Position numbers and translations under genes: made by a program. Of a DNA stretch of 64,000 bases, positions 21,514-34,973 are shown piece by piece. Under the pieces are notes generated by a model. The model was given only the letters and a program-made list of their open reading frames with translations. It made no database searches and was not told the origin of the DNA. Within the stretch, counting starts at the first letter, position 1; every line of letters starts with the position of its first letter. The stretch comes from Paludibacteraceae bacterium (GTDB taxonomy: Bacteria; Bacteroidota; Bacteroidia; Bacteroidales; Paludibacteraceae), in contig JAQUTW010000001.1 of the NCBI GenBank assembly GCA_028694215.1, positions 62,001 through 126,000 on the forward strand. Reading direction: 5' to 3'.

Positions 21514-22530
21514 ATGCAAACAAATTCCCTGCTCCAAGAGGTTATAACTACACTGAAAGGTAATAAAATTCTGCTGTGTCCCCTCAATTGGGGATTGGGA
21601 CATGCAACCAGATGTGTACCTATTGTGAACGCATTGATACAAGCAGGCAAAGAAGTTGTAGTGGCAGCAGACGGATTTGCTTTGGAGTTTCTCAAACAGG
21701 AATTTCCACATCTGCAAACTATTAAATTTTCGGGAATGCAAGTAGAATACAGCAACAGCGATTCACAAAACAAGATTCTTGCAAAAAACATCCCCTACTT
21801 CATCAAAAGTATTGCCACCGAACACAAACAATTGCAGAAAATCGTTGCCCAACATCATATCAACACCGTCATCTCCGACAATCGTTTCGGATTGTGGCAC
21901 AAACATATCGAAACAGTTTATATTACGCACCAGTTACTTGTAAAAATGCCTCCCGAACTGAAATTTGCCGAACGATTTGTGTGGCATATTCATCGTCGCA
22001 TTATTTCCAAATACAATCATTGCTGGATTCCCGATGTTTCGGGCAAAGACAATTTATCGGGCGACTTGTCACATCTGTACCCATTGCCAAAGAATGCTGC
22101 ATTTGTAGGATGGTTGTCGCGCTTTCAACAACAACCGCAAGACTCCTCAAAAACTTCTCCTTACGAAGTAGTAGCATTGCTGTCGGGACCGGAACCACAA
22201 CGCAGCATATTGGAACAAAAATTGGTCAACTACCTACAACGCAGCCTGTTCCCGTCGCTTATTGTACGCGGAATACCCTCAAAAATAACCGATAAGATGA
22301 AGATTGCCAATATCGATTTGATCTCGCACATCAACACGCAAGAGCTACAGCAGCTTATCGTAAATGCACCGACCGTTATCTGCCGTTCTGGATATTCTAC
22401 TCTGATGGACTTAATGACATTGGGAAAAAAAGCCGTTCTTATCCCTACTCCGGGACAAACCGAACAAGAATATTTAGCAGAAAATTTGAAAGAGAAGGGT
22501 TTTAAAATTCTACTTCAAAACGAACTGTAA
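21514..22530 (+). CDS. Glycosyltransferase-like protein (GT28/MurG-like fold)
   Basis: ILLCPLNWGLGHATRCVPIVNALIQAGKEVVVAADG; CRSGYSTLMDLMTLGKKAVLIPTPGQTEQEYLAENL. Confidence 0.75.
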   Translation: MQTNSLLQEVITTLKGNKILLCPLNWGLGHATRCVPIVNALIQAGKEVVVAADGFALEFLKQEFPHLQTIKFSGMQVEYSNSDSQNKILAKNIPYFIKSIATEHKQLQKIVAQHHINTVISDNRFGLWHKHIETVYITHQLLVKMPPELKFAERFVWHIHRRIISKYNHCWIPDVSGKDNLSGDLSHLYPLPKNAAFVGWLSRFQQQPQDSSKTSPYEVVALLSGPEPQRSILEQKLVNYLQRSLFPSLIVRGIPSKITDKMKIANIDLISHINTQELQQLIVNAPTVICRSGYSTLMDLMTLGKKAVLIPTPGQTEQEYLAENLKEKGFKILLQNEL

Positions 22531-22729
22531 TATTTCCAACCAACAAATTAACAAAATCCACAAGCATTCGGCGACACCAATCATTCAAGTCATCGAAAGT
22601 CTTTAGTTGCCTAAAATGCCACACGATAGAATCGCGCGGCAACAAAGGGCTAACCGAATGTTATATTGTTTTTTTTGTAATCACCTACAATTTTTTCAAA
22701 AAAATCAACTGCTTTTCAAAAAAATACGT

Positions 22730-22737
22730 TACCTTTG
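22730..22737 (+). promoter_or_regulatory. -7 element TACCTTTG of the aromatic amino acid operon
   Basis: gttacctttgcaac, 43 nt upstream of the leader ATG. Confidence 0.6.
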
Positions 22738-22780
22738 CAACGTTTTTGTTGCGATTAGCAATTTTAAAAGACTTGTTGAT

Positions 22781-22855
22781 ATGAAATCTTTGTTTTTTAG
22801 CTATTTTTATTTTTACTTTTACATTAGCTGTAAGAGCAGGATTTTGTATAATTAA
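22781..22855 (+). CDS. Phe/Tyr leader peptide (24 aa) MKSLFFSYFYFYFYISCKSRILYN
   Basis: Manual translation; 9 of 10 residues in FFSYFYFYFY are Phe/Tyr; precedes pheA/tyrA-type operon. Confidence 0.88.
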   Translation: MKSLFFSYFYFYFYISCKSRILYN

Positions 22856-22891
22856 ATAGAATTAATTTATTTCAAAAATCAATCCTGCTCT
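22833..22891 (+). promoter_or_regulatory. Antiterminator pairing: AGAGCAGGATT (22833-22843) with AATCCTGCTCT (22881-22891)
   Basis: Perfect 11-bp complementarity; 5' arm lies inside the leader ORF. Confidence 0.8.
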
Positions 22892-22915
22892 AAAGAGTAG
22901 GATTTTTTATTTTTT
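22881..22915 (+). terminator. Attenuator terminator AATCCTGCTC-TAAA-GAGTAGGATT + TTTTATTTTTT
   Basis: 10-bp stem (one G-U), UAAA loop, U-rich tail ending 4 nt before pheA ATG (22920). Confidence 0.85.
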
Positions 22916-22919
22916 ATGT

Positions 22920-23759
22920 ATGCAAAAGGTGGCAATTCAGGGATTTGAAGGCTCGTACCACGATAAAACGGCACGTATTTTTTTCGGTAACAACATAGAT
23001 ATTGTACCCTGTGATACTTTCAAAATGCTGGTAGAAAAGGTACGGTCGGACTCTGAAATTTTGGGCACTATTGCCATCGAAAATACCATTGCAGGAAGTT
23101 TGTTGCAAAACTATAATCTTATCAAAGATCAATCGTTGGTCATTGTCGGTGAACATAAATTGCGCATAAAACATTGTTTGGCAGTATATCCGGGACAAAC
23201 ATTATCGGAAATTAAAGAAGTACATTCGCACTATATGGCATTGTTGCAATGCGAAGATTTTCTTGCACAGCACCCTGAAATAAAATTGGTAGAGTCGGAC
23301 GATACCGCTAAAAGTGCTTACGAAATAGCACAAAATAAACAATTGGGAGTTGCTGCTATTTGTAATGCCGATTCTGCACGCAAATTCGGTTTGGAAATCT
23401 TGGCAGACGGCATAGAAACCAACAAACACAATTTTACGCGATTTCTAATGATTGCCAACATTAAAAACACCAAATACCAACTTGCCAAAGAGGAATGCAA
23501 CAAATCATCACTGGTATTTTCGTTGCCGCACGAAGAAGGAAGTTTGTCGAAAGTATTGACGATATTGTCGTTTTATAATATCAATTTAACCAAAATCCAA
23601 TCATTGCCGATTGTCGGACAAGAATGGGAATATCTGTTTTATATTGATGTACTTTTTGATGATTATCATCGTTATTTACAGGCAATAGAAGCCATTCGTC
23701 CACTTACAAGGAATATTAAGATTTTGGGAGAATATAAAGAAGGGACTCAAACCATTTAA
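22920..23759 (+). CDS. pheA: Prephenate dehydratase (monofunctional, with ACT domain)
   Basis: VAIQGFEGSYHDKTARIFF, TIAIENTIAGSLLQNYNLI, ACT domain SLSKVLTILSFYNINLTKIQSLP. Confidence 0.92.
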   Translation: MQKVAIQGFEGSYHDKTARIFFGNNIDIVPCDTFKMLVEKVRSDSEILGTIAIENTIAGSLLQNYNLIKDQSLVIVGEHKLRIKHCLAVYPGQTLSEIKEVHSHYMALLQCEDFLAQHPEIKLVESDDTAKSAYEIAQNKQLGVAAICNADSARKFGLEILADGIETNKHNFTRFLMIANIKNTKYQLAKEECNKSSLVFSLPHEEGSLSKVLTILSFYNINLTKIQSLPIVGQEWEYLFYIDVLFDDYHRYLQAIEAIRPLTRNIKILGEYKEGTQTI

Positions 23760-23771
23760 AAAAATGAAGAG

Positions 23772-24932
23772 ATGAAAGAAGCCGTTATGTGTGCAAATCG
23801 CTTGGCATTGGTTCAAGAATATTACTTCTCGCGCAAATTGAAAGAAGTGGCACAAATGAATGCCGAAGGTAAAGATGTGATTTCACTTGGCATCGGGAGT
23901 CCCGATATGCCACCATCGGAAGCTGCCGTGAAAGCATTATGTAACAGTGCCGTAAAAGCAGATGTACATGGTTACCAGCCTTATACGGGTATTCCGGAAT
24001 TGCGACAGGCTTTTGCCGATTTTTATAAAAAATGGTATGGCGTAACGCTGAATCCTGCCAACGAAATTCAACCGCTTATTGGTTCGAAAGAAGGGATCCT
24101 ACATATTACCCTTGCGTTTGTGAATCCCGGAGAACAGGTTTTGGTGCCAAATCCCGGATATCCAACTTATACATCACTCAGTAGCTTGCTTGGTGCAGAA
24201 GTTATTCATTATGATTTAACAGAAAAAAATGGTTGGTTACCCGATTTTGACGCGTTGGAAAAAATGGATTTGAGTCGTGTAAAACTGATGTGGACAAACT
24301 ATCCGCACATGCCTACAGGTACCAATGCCAGTTTGGATTTGTATCGGAAATTGGTAGCCTTCGGTAAAAAGCACAATATTGTTATTGTCAATGATAATCC
24401 TTACAGCTTTATTTTAAACCGCAAGCCAATCAGCATTTTGCAAATAGACGGAGCAAAAGATTGCTGCATTGAACTTAATTCGATGAGTAAAAGTCATAAT
24501 ATGCCGGGATGGCGTATTGGCTTGGCAGCGTCCAACAGCACTTTTATTCAGTGGATTTTGAAAGTAAAAAGCAATATCGATTCGGGAATGTTTCGTCCTA
24601 TGCAGTTGGCAGCGGTAGAAGCTTTGCATAATACAGACGCTTGGCATGAAGCAATGAATTATGATGTTTATAAACAACGACGTATTTTGGCAGAACAGAT
24701 AATGAATGCACTTGGTTGCACCTATAACAACAATCAGGTCGGAATGTTTCTTTGGGGACGTATCCCCGACGAATATGCAAATGTAGAAGATTTAACAGAG
24801 AAACTTTTACATGAAAAGCATGTATTTATTACTCCCGGTTTTATTTTTGGTACGAATGGTGCACGATATATTCGAATCTCACTTTGCTGTAAGGAAGATA
24901 AATTACAGGAAGCATTAAACAGAATAATATAA
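23772..24932 (+). CDS. PLP-dependent aminotransferase class I/II (aromatic operon)
   Basis: DVISLGIGSPDMPPSEAAVKAL, ELNSMSKSHNMPGWRIGLAASN. Confidence 0.88.
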   Translation: MKEAVMCANRLALVQEYYFSRKLKEVAQMNAEGKDVISLGIGSPDMPPSEAAVKALCNSAVKADVHGYQPYTGIPELRQAFADFYKKWYGVTLNPANEIQPLIGSKEGILHITLAFVNPGEQVLVPNPGYPTYTSLSSLLGAEVIHYDLTEKNGWLPDFDALEKMDLSRVKLMWTNYPHMPTGTNASLDLYRKLVAFGKKHNIVIVNDNPYSFILNRKPISILQIDGAKDCCIELNSMSKSHNMPGWRIGLAASNSTFIQWILKVKSNIDSGMFRPMQLAAVEALHNTDAWHEAMNYDVYKQRRILAEQIMNALGCTYNNNQVGMFLWGRIPDEYANVEDLTEKLLHEKHVFITPGFIFGTNGARYIRISLCCKEDKLQEALNRII

Positions 24933-24975: not shown

Positions 24976-26037
24976 ATGGATTTTCAACCACTTAACTTAC
25001 AAGGCACTGATGCAAAACGTCCGATAGTAATCGCAGGTCCATGCAGTGCCGAAACAGAAGAACAAGTACTCGCCACTGCCAAACAGTTGGCAGCCAACGG
25101 AATTAAAATTTTTCGTGCAGGAATTTGGAAACCGCGCACCAAACCGGGAGGTTTTGAAGGTGTCGGCAGCGAAGGTTTGCCATGGCTGCGACATGTAAAA
25201 CAGGAAACAGGAATATACACAGCCACCGAAGTTGCCACGGCAAAACATGTTTATGAAGCTCTGAAATATGGTGTAGATGTATTGTGGATAGGTGCTCGTA
25301 CCACCGCCAATCCGTTTGCAGTGCAGGAAATTGCCGACGCTCTGAAAGGCGTGGATATTCCAATACTGATAAAAAATCCGGTCAATCCGGATTTAGAGTT
25401 GTGGATTGGAGCCATTGAACGTATCTACAATGCAGGTTTACATAAAATTGCAGCCATTCATCGCGGATTCAGTTCATACGACAAAAAAGTGTATCGCAAT
25501 CAACCACAATGGCATATCCCAATAGAATTGCATCGTCGTTATCCAAATTTACCTTTATTTTGCGATCCAAGTCATATAGGCGGAAAGCGCGAACTTATTG
25601 CACCACTATCGCAACAGGCAATGGATATGCAGTTTGACGGTTTGATAATTGAAAGTCATTGCACTCCTGATACAGCATGGAGCGATAAAGACCAACAGGT
25701 TACTCCTGAAATTTTAGACGTTATTTTGCGCAAATTGGTTATTCGCGAAATGAAACAATCGACAGAAGATTTAGTAGATTTGCGTCGTCAAATAGATGGT
25801 TTAGACAATGATTTGCTCGAAATACTTGCCAAACGAATGCGGGTTTCAAAAGAAATAGGTACGTACAAAAAAGAACATGATGTAGCTGTAGTACAAACCG
25901 GGCGTTACAACGAAATTCTTGAAAAACGCATTGCAAACGGCGAAAAACTTGGTATGAGCCACGATTTTATGCGTACTATTTTGGAGGCCATTCATGAAGA
26001 ATCGGTTCGTGTACAGGTAGAACTTATAAATAAATAA
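24976..26037 (+). CDS. Bifunctional 3-deoxy-7-phosphoheptulonate synthase / chorismate mutase type II
   Basis: VIAGPCSAETEEQVLATA, FRAGIWKPRTKPGGFEGVG, C-term DLVDLRRQIDGLDNDLLEILAKRMRVSKEIGTYK. Confidence 0.92.
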   Translation: MDFQPLNLQGTDAKRPIVIAGPCSAETEEQVLATAKQLAANGIKIFRAGIWKPRTKPGGFEGVGSEGLPWLRHVKQETGIYTATEVATAKHVYEALKYGVDVLWIGARTTANPFAVQEIADALKGVDIPILIKNPVNPDLELWIGAIERIYNAGLHKIAAIHRGFSSYDKKVYRNQPQWHIPIELHRRYPNLPLFCDPSHIGGKRELIAPLSQQAMDMQFDGLIIESHCTPDTAWSDKDQQVTPEILDVILRKLVIREMKQSTEDLVDLRRQIDGLDNDLLEILAKRMRVSKEIGTYKKEHDVAVVQTGRYNEILEKRIANGEKLGMSHDFMRTILEAIHEESVRVQVELINK

Positions 26038-26062: not shown

Positions 26063-26836
26063 ATGAAAATTTTGATTCTCGGTGCCGGCAAAATGGGCAC
26101 ATTTCTGACCGATTGTCTATGTATGAAACATGAGGTGGCATTATTTGAAACCGATCCGCATCGCTTACGCTTTGTTTTTAATACACAACGATTTACCAAA
26201 TTGGAAGAGATTCGTACATTTCAACCTGAAATCTGTATTAATGCCGTTACCTTGAAATATACTATTTCGGCCTTTGAAAGCGTATTTCCTTACTTGCCAA
26301 AATCGTGTATTTTGTCTGATATTGCTTCGGTAAAAACAGGCCTGCAGGCATTTTATCAACAAACCGGACATCGTTATGTTTCTACGCACCCGATGTTTGG
26401 TCCCACATTCGCCAATTTGTCAGACCTTAGCACACAAAGTGCCATCATTATTGCTGAAAGTGACCACATGGGTAAAGCTTTTTTTAAAGATTTCTATGGC
26501 TCACTCAAATTACATATTTTTGAATATACGTTTGAAGAACATGATGAAACCATTGCCTATTCTCTATCCATCCCTTTTGTGTCATCATTGGTGTTTGCTG
26601 CCGTAATGAAACATCAGGAAGCACCCGGAACCACATTTAAAAAACATTTGGCAGTGGCACGCGGGCTTTTGTCGGAAGACGATTATTTGCTGTCGGAAAT
26701 TTTGTTCAACCCACATACGGCGGGACAAATAGACGCTATCAAAGAGCAAATGACTTTATTACAGGATATTATAGAGAAAAAAGACACAACACGCATGCAG
26801 CGGTTTTTGACAAAAGTGCGTGAAAATATTGGATAG
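26063..26836 (+). CDS. tyrA: Prephenate dehydrogenase
   Basis: MKILILGAGKMGTFLTDCL, SDIASVKTGLQAF, STHPMFGPTFA. Confidence 0.88.
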   Translation: MKILILGAGKMGTFLTDCLCMKHEVALFETDPHRLRFVFNTQRFTKLEEIRTFQPEICINAVTLKYTISAFESVFPYLPKSCILSDIASVKTGLQAFYQQTGHRYVSTHPMFGPTFANLSDLSTQSAIIIAESDHMGKAFFKDFYGSLKLHIFEYTFEEHDETIAYSLSIPFVSSLVFAAVMKHQEAPGTTFKKHLAVARGLLSEDDYLLSEILFNPHTAGQIDAIKEQMTLLQDIIEKKDTTRMQRFLTKVRENIG

Positions 26837-34121: not shown

Positions 34122-34973
34122 TTATAAAATCATTTTCTCTATCGGCAACACCAAAATGCCTTCAGCTCCCAATTGTTTTAATTTACCAATAATATCCCAA
34201 AATCGTTTTTCGTCTAACACAGTATGCAAAGAACTCCATCCATCGCGCACCAATGGCATTATGGTTGGAGCTTTCATTCCGGGCAGAATATCTATAATGG
34301 CTTTAATCTTTTCATTGGGAACATTCATTAAAATATATTTTTTATTGTAGGCTTCTTGTACGGCTTCAATACGAAACAACAATTCATCAAAAATGGTTTG
34401 TTTCAGTGGCGTCAGTTGTTTGTTGGCAATCATCACTGCTTCCGATTCCATAATTACTTCTACCTCTTTCAAATGATGTGCCACCAAAGTGCTTCCGGAG
34501 CTTACAATATCGAAAATGGCGTCCGCAACACCTAATTCGGGAGAAATCTCTACAGAACCTGTAATGATAAATATTTTAGCTTTAATACTATTTTTTTTAA
34601 GAAATGTCGCTAAAATATCAGGATAAGAAGTGGCTATCTTTTTCCCGTTAAACCATTCCAATCCTTTATATTTTGCTTCTTTGGGAATTGCCAAAGAAAG
34701 GCGACAATTGCTAAAACCAAGTCGTTTCACAATATCGGCATTAGCCCGTTTCTCTACATATTCATTTTCGCCGACAATACCAACGTCAGCAATGCCTTCT
34801 GCCACCGATTTGGGAATGTCATCATCTCTTAAAAATAAGATTTCGGCCGGAAAATTGCTTGAACGTGTCAATAATTGGCGTTTCCCGATGGACAATTTTA
34901 CGCCTACTTCTTCCAATAAGTTCATGGTGTCTTCATTCAAGCGACCTTTCGACTGTACTGCTATTCGTAACAT
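34122..34973 (-). CDS. hisG: ATP phosphoribosyltransferase
   Basis: LRIAVQSKGRLNEDTMNLLEEVG, DVGIVGENEY, C-terminal regulatory domain. Confidence 0.95.
   Translation of the reverse strand: MLRIAVQSKGRLNEDTMNLLEEVGVKLSIGKRQLLTRSSNFPAEILFLRDDDIPKSVAEGIADVGIVGENEYVEKRANADIVKRLGFSNCRLSLAIPKEAKYKGLEWFNGKKIATSYPDILATFLKKNSIKAKIFIITGSVEISPELGVADAIFDIVSSGSTLVAHHLKEVEVIMESEAVMIANKQLTPLKQTIFDELLFRIEAVQEAYNKKYILMNVPNEKIKAIIDILPGMKAPTIMPLVRDGWSSLHTVLDEKRFWDIIGKLKQLGAEGILVLPIEKMIL

Follow-up and report, generated by a model that had tools for sequence, protein, structure and literature searches.

What controls an operon that serves the synthesis of two different amino acids? The question arises in a stretch of 64,000 nucleotides (here called the window) from a Paludibacteraceae bacterium, where a short ORF dense in Phe and Tyr codons stands before four aromatic amino acid genes. 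All features described below lie on the forward (+) strand unless stated otherwise. The first gene is pheA, encoding prephenate dehydratase (22920–23759; Pfam PDT, 8.6e-53). It is followed by genes for a class I/II aminotransferase (23772–24932; Aminotran_1_2, 8.8e-65), a DAHP synthase fused to chorismate mutase (24976–26037; DAHP_synth_1, 4.9e-39; CM_2, 1.8e-23) and the prephenate dehydrogenase TyrA (tyrA, 26063–26836; PDH_N, 7.1e-8, with the NCBIfam prephenate dehydrogenase models below cut-off). A preliminary description of this DNA had proposed the same gene order, and the Pfam matches bear it out. Judging from these assignments and from the composition of split operons, the structural genes make the amino acids that the short ORF encodes. 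The answer suggested by the sequence is that a ribosome-mediated transcription attenuator, sensing charged Phe and Tyr tRNA, very probably controls the operon. Conservation and covariation strongly support this core reading of the preliminary description.

The leader ORF and its conservation

The leader peptide ORF, MKSLFFSYFYFYFYISCKSRILYN, occupies positions 22781–22855, with an ATG at 22781 and a TAA stop codon at 22853–22855. Reading its codons directly, positions 22793–22822 encode FFSYFYFYFY, that is, five Phe, four Tyr and one Ser, such that 9 of 10 codons are Phe or Tyr. The codon pattern TAT TTT TAT TTT TAC TTT TAC within the run is the same as in relatives. Across both strands of the window, this is the sole ATG-initiated ORF of 8–60 codons with at least seven Phe or Tyr codons in a stretch of eight. 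The same density, 7–8 of 8 codons, is found at 98 of 106 pheA upstream regions and in none of 980 dinucleotide-shuffled upstream regions (0/980). The ORF and its run are where they had been placed, and the shuffles speak strongly against a chance origin.

A putative promoter precedes the leader. The sequence TACCTTTG (22730–22737) matches TAnnTTTG, the consensus of the Bacteroidetes-type −7 box, and transcription would begin ~6–10 nt downstream of it. Of 93 loci, 86 have a box of this kind in the 90 nt preceding the leader ATG, as against 5.5% of mononucleotide shuffles, and where present its distance to the ATG is mostly 18–30 nt. The preliminary description had remarked that the list of ORFs shows the leader only as the end of an 82-aa frame. 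That frame does exist, starting at a TTG, and is irrelevant to the argument because the −7 box puts the predicted transcription start within it.

The leader is conserved. pheA was found in 37 of the 61 genomes searched at the levels of genus, family and order, and all 29 relatives with a fetched upstream region (29/29) carry a Phe/Tyr leader, a segment resembling GTAAGAG-C-A/G-GG and a matching terminator. A gapless scan lost a few of the terminators and of the duplexes between the second and third RNA segments, including bulged duplexes at L014, L019, L026 and L092; a covariance model regained these. Among 80 named Bacteroidales loci, drawn from Bacteroides, Prevotellaceae, Paraprevotella, Alistipes, Dysgonomonas, Marinilabiliaceae and others, the leader is present at 77. 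It stands directly before pheA at 76 of these, and at the remaining one (L095) it lies upstream of an inserted gene. The three named loci without a leader (L063, L086 and L107) have a pheA gene with no adjoining aminotransferase or DAHP synthase gene. The alignment of upstream regions that the preliminary description had called for thus shows the Phe/Tyr run kept, and the helices it had drawn covary, as detailed below.

RNA segments and the proposed switch

How could translation of the leader be linked to transcription of pheA? Four RNA segments are involved. Segment 1, CTTTTAC (22816–22822), lies within the last Phe/Tyr codons, and its partner is the GTAAGAG of segment 2; its assignment comes from covariation and from a preference for TAC codons. 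Segment 2, GTAAGAGCAGGATT (22830–22843), contains AGAGCAGGATT (22833–22843), which is, as had been claimed, the exact reverse complement of segment 3, AATCCTGCTCT (22881–22891). Segment 3 is common to the anti-terminator (2:3) and the terminator (3:4), and segment 4 (22894–22904) is the 3′ arm of the terminator. A terminator scan places the U-rich tail at 22905–22915, and both the scan and the alignment put an intrinsic terminator with a U-tract upstream of pheA, the first structural gene. The UAAA loop attributed to this hairpin stands, while the 11-nt pairing does not: the stem has 10 bp (22881–22890 with 22895–22904, one of them G-U) because adding an 11th would shrink the loop to 2 nt. As a whole, the leader (161 nt) folds better than 200 of 200 dinucleotide shuffles (z −3.0).

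Pairing in the three mutually exclusive helices was tallied across 68 diverse leaders aligned with MAFFT. The terminator 3:4 is paired in 94.8% of cells, with double changes in 10 of 11 pairs; the corresponding values are 79.0% and 9 of 11 pairs for the anti-terminator 2:3, and 86.4% and 7 of 8 pairs for a protector helix 1:2 (CUUUUAC:GUAAGAG). All three exceed 500 column shuffles, which retain sequence relatedness, in pairing, double changes and covariation score, and all three exceed slid versions of themselves in pairing and covariation score. The preliminary description had envisaged a minimal design of three segments. The conserved, covarying 1:2 helix overturns this: the element has the four segments of a classical attenuator, the first of them embedded in the regulatory codons. 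Folding of the window predicts a further 1:2 hairpin, longer and species-specific, with its 5′ arm at 22779–22803 and its partner at 22825–22849. Codon choice fits the same architecture. At the last two Tyr codons of the run, in its second- and fourth-last positions, TAC is used in 138 cases and TAT in 14 (73 to 4 and 65 to 10), a bias that a constraint on segment 1 as RNA would produce; at the two Tyr positions further upstream, TAT outnumbers TAC by 88 to 37 (42 to 6 and 46 to 31).

These data bear on two other accounts of the hairpin. One is that an ordinary terminator, belonging to a small RNA or to upstream transcription, happens to follow a meaningless short ORF. The hairpin and U-tract in the window would satisfy such an account, yet it predicts neither a codon run kept in nearly all relatives and missing from every shuffled region nor mutually exclusive helices that covary, and it can be dismissed for practical purposes. 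The other is translational control, in which the 3:4 stem interferes with ribosome access to pheA and transcription is not stopped. An initiating ribosome could reach the stem in the window, where 15 nt separate its end from the pheA ATG. Elsewhere the geometry is less favorable to this idea: the distance from stem to pheA ranges from 10 to 155 nt, with a median of 28 nt and at least 25 nt at 59 of 92 loci, and at L095 the inserted gene comes between. Moreover, a stem followed by a U-tract is typical of intrinsic terminators and is found at nearly all loci. Translational control is thus very unlikely, and transcription attenuation is the preferred reading.

Under transcription attenuation, RNA polymerase would synthesize the leader with a ribosome translating the short ORF behind it. 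A shortage of Phe-tRNA or Tyr-tRNA would stall the ribosome in the Phe/Tyr run, where it would cover segment 1, leaving segment 2 free to pair with segment 3 once the latter is made. With 2:3 formed, the 3:4 terminator would come too late, and the pheA–aminotransferase–DAHP synthase/chorismate mutase–tyrA operon would be transcribed. When charged tRNA is available for both amino acids, the ribosome would proceed to the stop codon and cover segment 2; 3:4 would then form, and transcription would stop in the U-tract ahead of pheA. Without a ribosome, segment 2 would be held by 1:2, such that 3:4 would again terminate. Like the promoter, translation of the leader, ribosome stalling, transcription termination and responsiveness to Phe and Tyr are predictions from the sequence.

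Folding of 91 loci with a masked ribosome footprint is consistent with this scheme for transcripts that extend through segment 3 and still lack segment 4. With the ribosome stalled at the sixth codon of the run, the median probability of 2:3 is 0.98; it is 0.00 with the ribosome at the stop codon, a position in which the full leader forms 3:4 at 0.95. At equilibrium, 3:4 beats 2:3 at most loci, even under a stalled ribosome. A kinetic choice between 2:3 and 3:4 is therefore required, which is the usual assumption for attenuators of this kind. The earlier proposal that stalling lets segments 2 and 3 pair accordingly holds before segment 4 exists and fails at equilibrium, where 3:4 wins in most species. 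Two features call for refinement of the scheme. First, when the window is folded with no ribosome and with segment 4 not yet synthesized, 2:3 is energetically favored over 1:2 (0.88), so basal termination would rely on 1:2 forming first. Second, at ~16% of loci the stop codon lies far past segment 2, and a ribosome masking the RNA there does not prevent 2:3 in the model. The stop is thus too distant for simple masking at about one-sixth of loci, meaning that the model is incomplete there and the off-state needs another explanation. Stop codons ~36–43 nt past the start of segment 2 are seen at L070, L073, L096, L040 and L112.

Spread, split operons and tandem copies

How widespread is the element? 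A covariance model of it (R1) scores the window at E 2.8e-9, which is the only clear match in its own genome (next best, E 0.099). R1 matches 66 of 197 genomes in the order Bacteroidales, 29 of 241 in the class and 41 of 297 in the phylum, and these fractions are lower bounds because the filters were strict, the E cut-off was 0.001 and many genomes had no pheA match. Other families of the class are among those matched, and 25 of the 29 class matches are at pheA or DAHP synthase loci with a Phe/Tyr leader. In another family of the class, one genus has Phe/Tyr attenuators at loci that encode DAHP synthase/chorismate mutase and give no pheA match in the vicinity (L137, L138 and L139). Five genomes of the phylum outside the class have R1 matches (G346, G350, G428, G519 and G546). 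Within the genome of the window, a gene-by-gene search found no matching leader at ilvD or at the aspartokinase/homoserine dehydrogenase gene, and no match for trpE itself in what is an incomplete assembly. At hisG (34365–34829, reverse strand; upstream region to 35500) there is no His-rich leader, and a promoter-like box stands just before the ATG.

Does the leader sense both amino acids? It is possible that it senses only one in practice, for example Phe, with the other codons serving the UUU-UAC repeats of the helix; indeed, the CUUUUAC repeat is constrained as RNA. Operons that have been split speak to this point. In one genome (G054), a single-gene pheA locus (L015/L191) coexists with a locus comprising tyrA and DAHP synthase (L183); in another (G563), a single-gene pheA locus (L184) coexists with a locus comprising aminotransferase, DAHP synthase and tyrA (L161/L192). 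The runs before single-gene pheA, MTRFFTHFFFFFTQQ (L015) and MRRNSFRFFFFFAFFFCNGRNGVSYLY (L184), contain Phe and no Tyr. The leader at L183, MNNTFGYYAFYYYFFYNN, is Tyr-rich, and that at L161/L192 is MIKNISVFAYFYYYFYFSKK. All 97 operon leaders counted (97/97) have at least three Tyr codons, such that Tyr-free runs occur at 2 of 2 single-gene pheA loci and at 0 of 97 operons (one-sided Fisher 2e-4, on small numbers). The pheA leaders without Tyr keep the same design, which argues against a purely structural role for the Tyr codons; together with the Tyr-rich L183 leader, they show that codon content follows the genes controlled. Although the cases are few, this points to the codons as the sensor, and sensing of a single amino acid from the mixed leader is unlikely. 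A leader that would respond to Phe and Tyr alike is the favored reading.

Some relatives carry the element twice. At L019, L030, L065 and L068/L069, pheA is preceded by two Phe/Tyr leaders and a separate terminator for each, with both units recognized by the model, and the tandem form is also present in G629, G713, G618, G722, G615 and G698. Tandems thus occur in several families of the order. Base-by-base inspection at L019, L030, L065, L068 and L071 found no promoter box between the units, so both probably act on one transcript. Further tandem Phe/Tyr attenuators before pheA are seen at L071 and L185–L190, and, by peptide scan, at L163, L167 and L182. The second leaders of tandems differ in sequence; for example, helix 1:2 can be CTTTATG:CATAAGG. 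A broader history can be proposed, with a little more in its favor than against it: the mixed Phe/Tyr attenuator may be ancient in the class Bacteroidia, unrelated by descent to proteobacterial pheL and a main control of aromatic amino acid synthesis in the phylum, with a codon content that adjusts when operons split and with repeated doubling into serial same-signal pairs that sharpen or widen the response.

Relation to known attenuators

How does this element compare with known systems? Like the trpL, hisL, thrL and ilv leaders and E. coli pheL, it combines a leader peptide rich in codons for the product, mutually exclusive 1:2, 2:3 and 3:4 helices and a terminator before the operon. It differs in four respects. 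First, one leader here would sense two aromatic amino acids over a joint Phe and Tyr operon; mixed-codon sensing as such occurs in the thrL and ilv leaders. Second, segment 1 lies within the regulatory codons. Third, the stop codon is at the start of segment 2 in many relatives. Fourth, the predicted promoter is of the Bacteroidetes type, and a Shine-Dalgarno sequence is not evident here. Rfam has a family, RF01859 (Phe_leader), that shares the function and general plan; the window matches it weakly and partially at the terminator region, scoring 23.7 bits (E 0.21) where the gathering threshold is 55, and membership is not detectable. T-boxes also control aromatic amino acid genes in other phyla, and a T-box or protein-binding attenuator could in principle use the same terminator. 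However, conservation centers on a run of codons within an open frame, and positions 22400–23300 have no T-box match in Rfam up to E 10, all Rfam hits being sub-threshold. This alternative has next to nothing to recommend it over ribosome-mediated attenuation.

Attenuation had been called unusual for this phylum in the preliminary description. It has a precedent there: leader-peptide attenuation was inferred earlier, on strong clues, at amino acid operons of Flavobacterium psychrophilum (PMC9723704). That work, in the parts available, describes 5′ elements upstream of pheA and hisG, with the pheA element conserved in Flavobacteriaceae and not in Rfam. The phylum and target gene are the same as here, which makes it a possible counterpart; in those parts, the element is presented without sequence anatomy, covariation or wider spread (PMC9723704). 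Short ORFs reminiscent of leader peptides have also been reported in 5′ UTRs of Bacteroides thetaiotaomicron (PMC7366714). For the tandem relatives, rather than the window, the closest likeness is Salmonella mgtCBR, where two leader ORFs stand in series on one mRNA. The mgtCBR attenuators answer different signals, ATP and proline (PMC3641672), whereas the tandem relatives have Phe/Tyr runs in both leaders, each with its own terminator. The kind of attenuator is thus known. Relative to the literature searched, what appears new is the anatomy, the predicted sensing of Phe plus Tyr, the shift in composition on operon splitting and the tandem copies. Some Bacteroidetes/Chlorobi attenuators may already be listed by Vitreschak et al. 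2004 (FEMS Microbiol Lett), and hence no claim to a first prediction is made.

What are the implications? A 2013 survey argued that amino acid attenuators may originate in the gamma-proteobacteria and have rarely spread (PMC3766115). The element in the window stands in contrast to that argument, being widespread in another phylum, with an architecture of its own and no Rfam family. Bacteroidetes dominate the gut, and to our knowledge little is known about how they control amino acid synthesis. The leader provides a testable case of one leader that would sense two amino acids, for which the split operons are a natural experiment, and its tandem relatives offer a rare arrangement in which two serial attenuators would share one signal.
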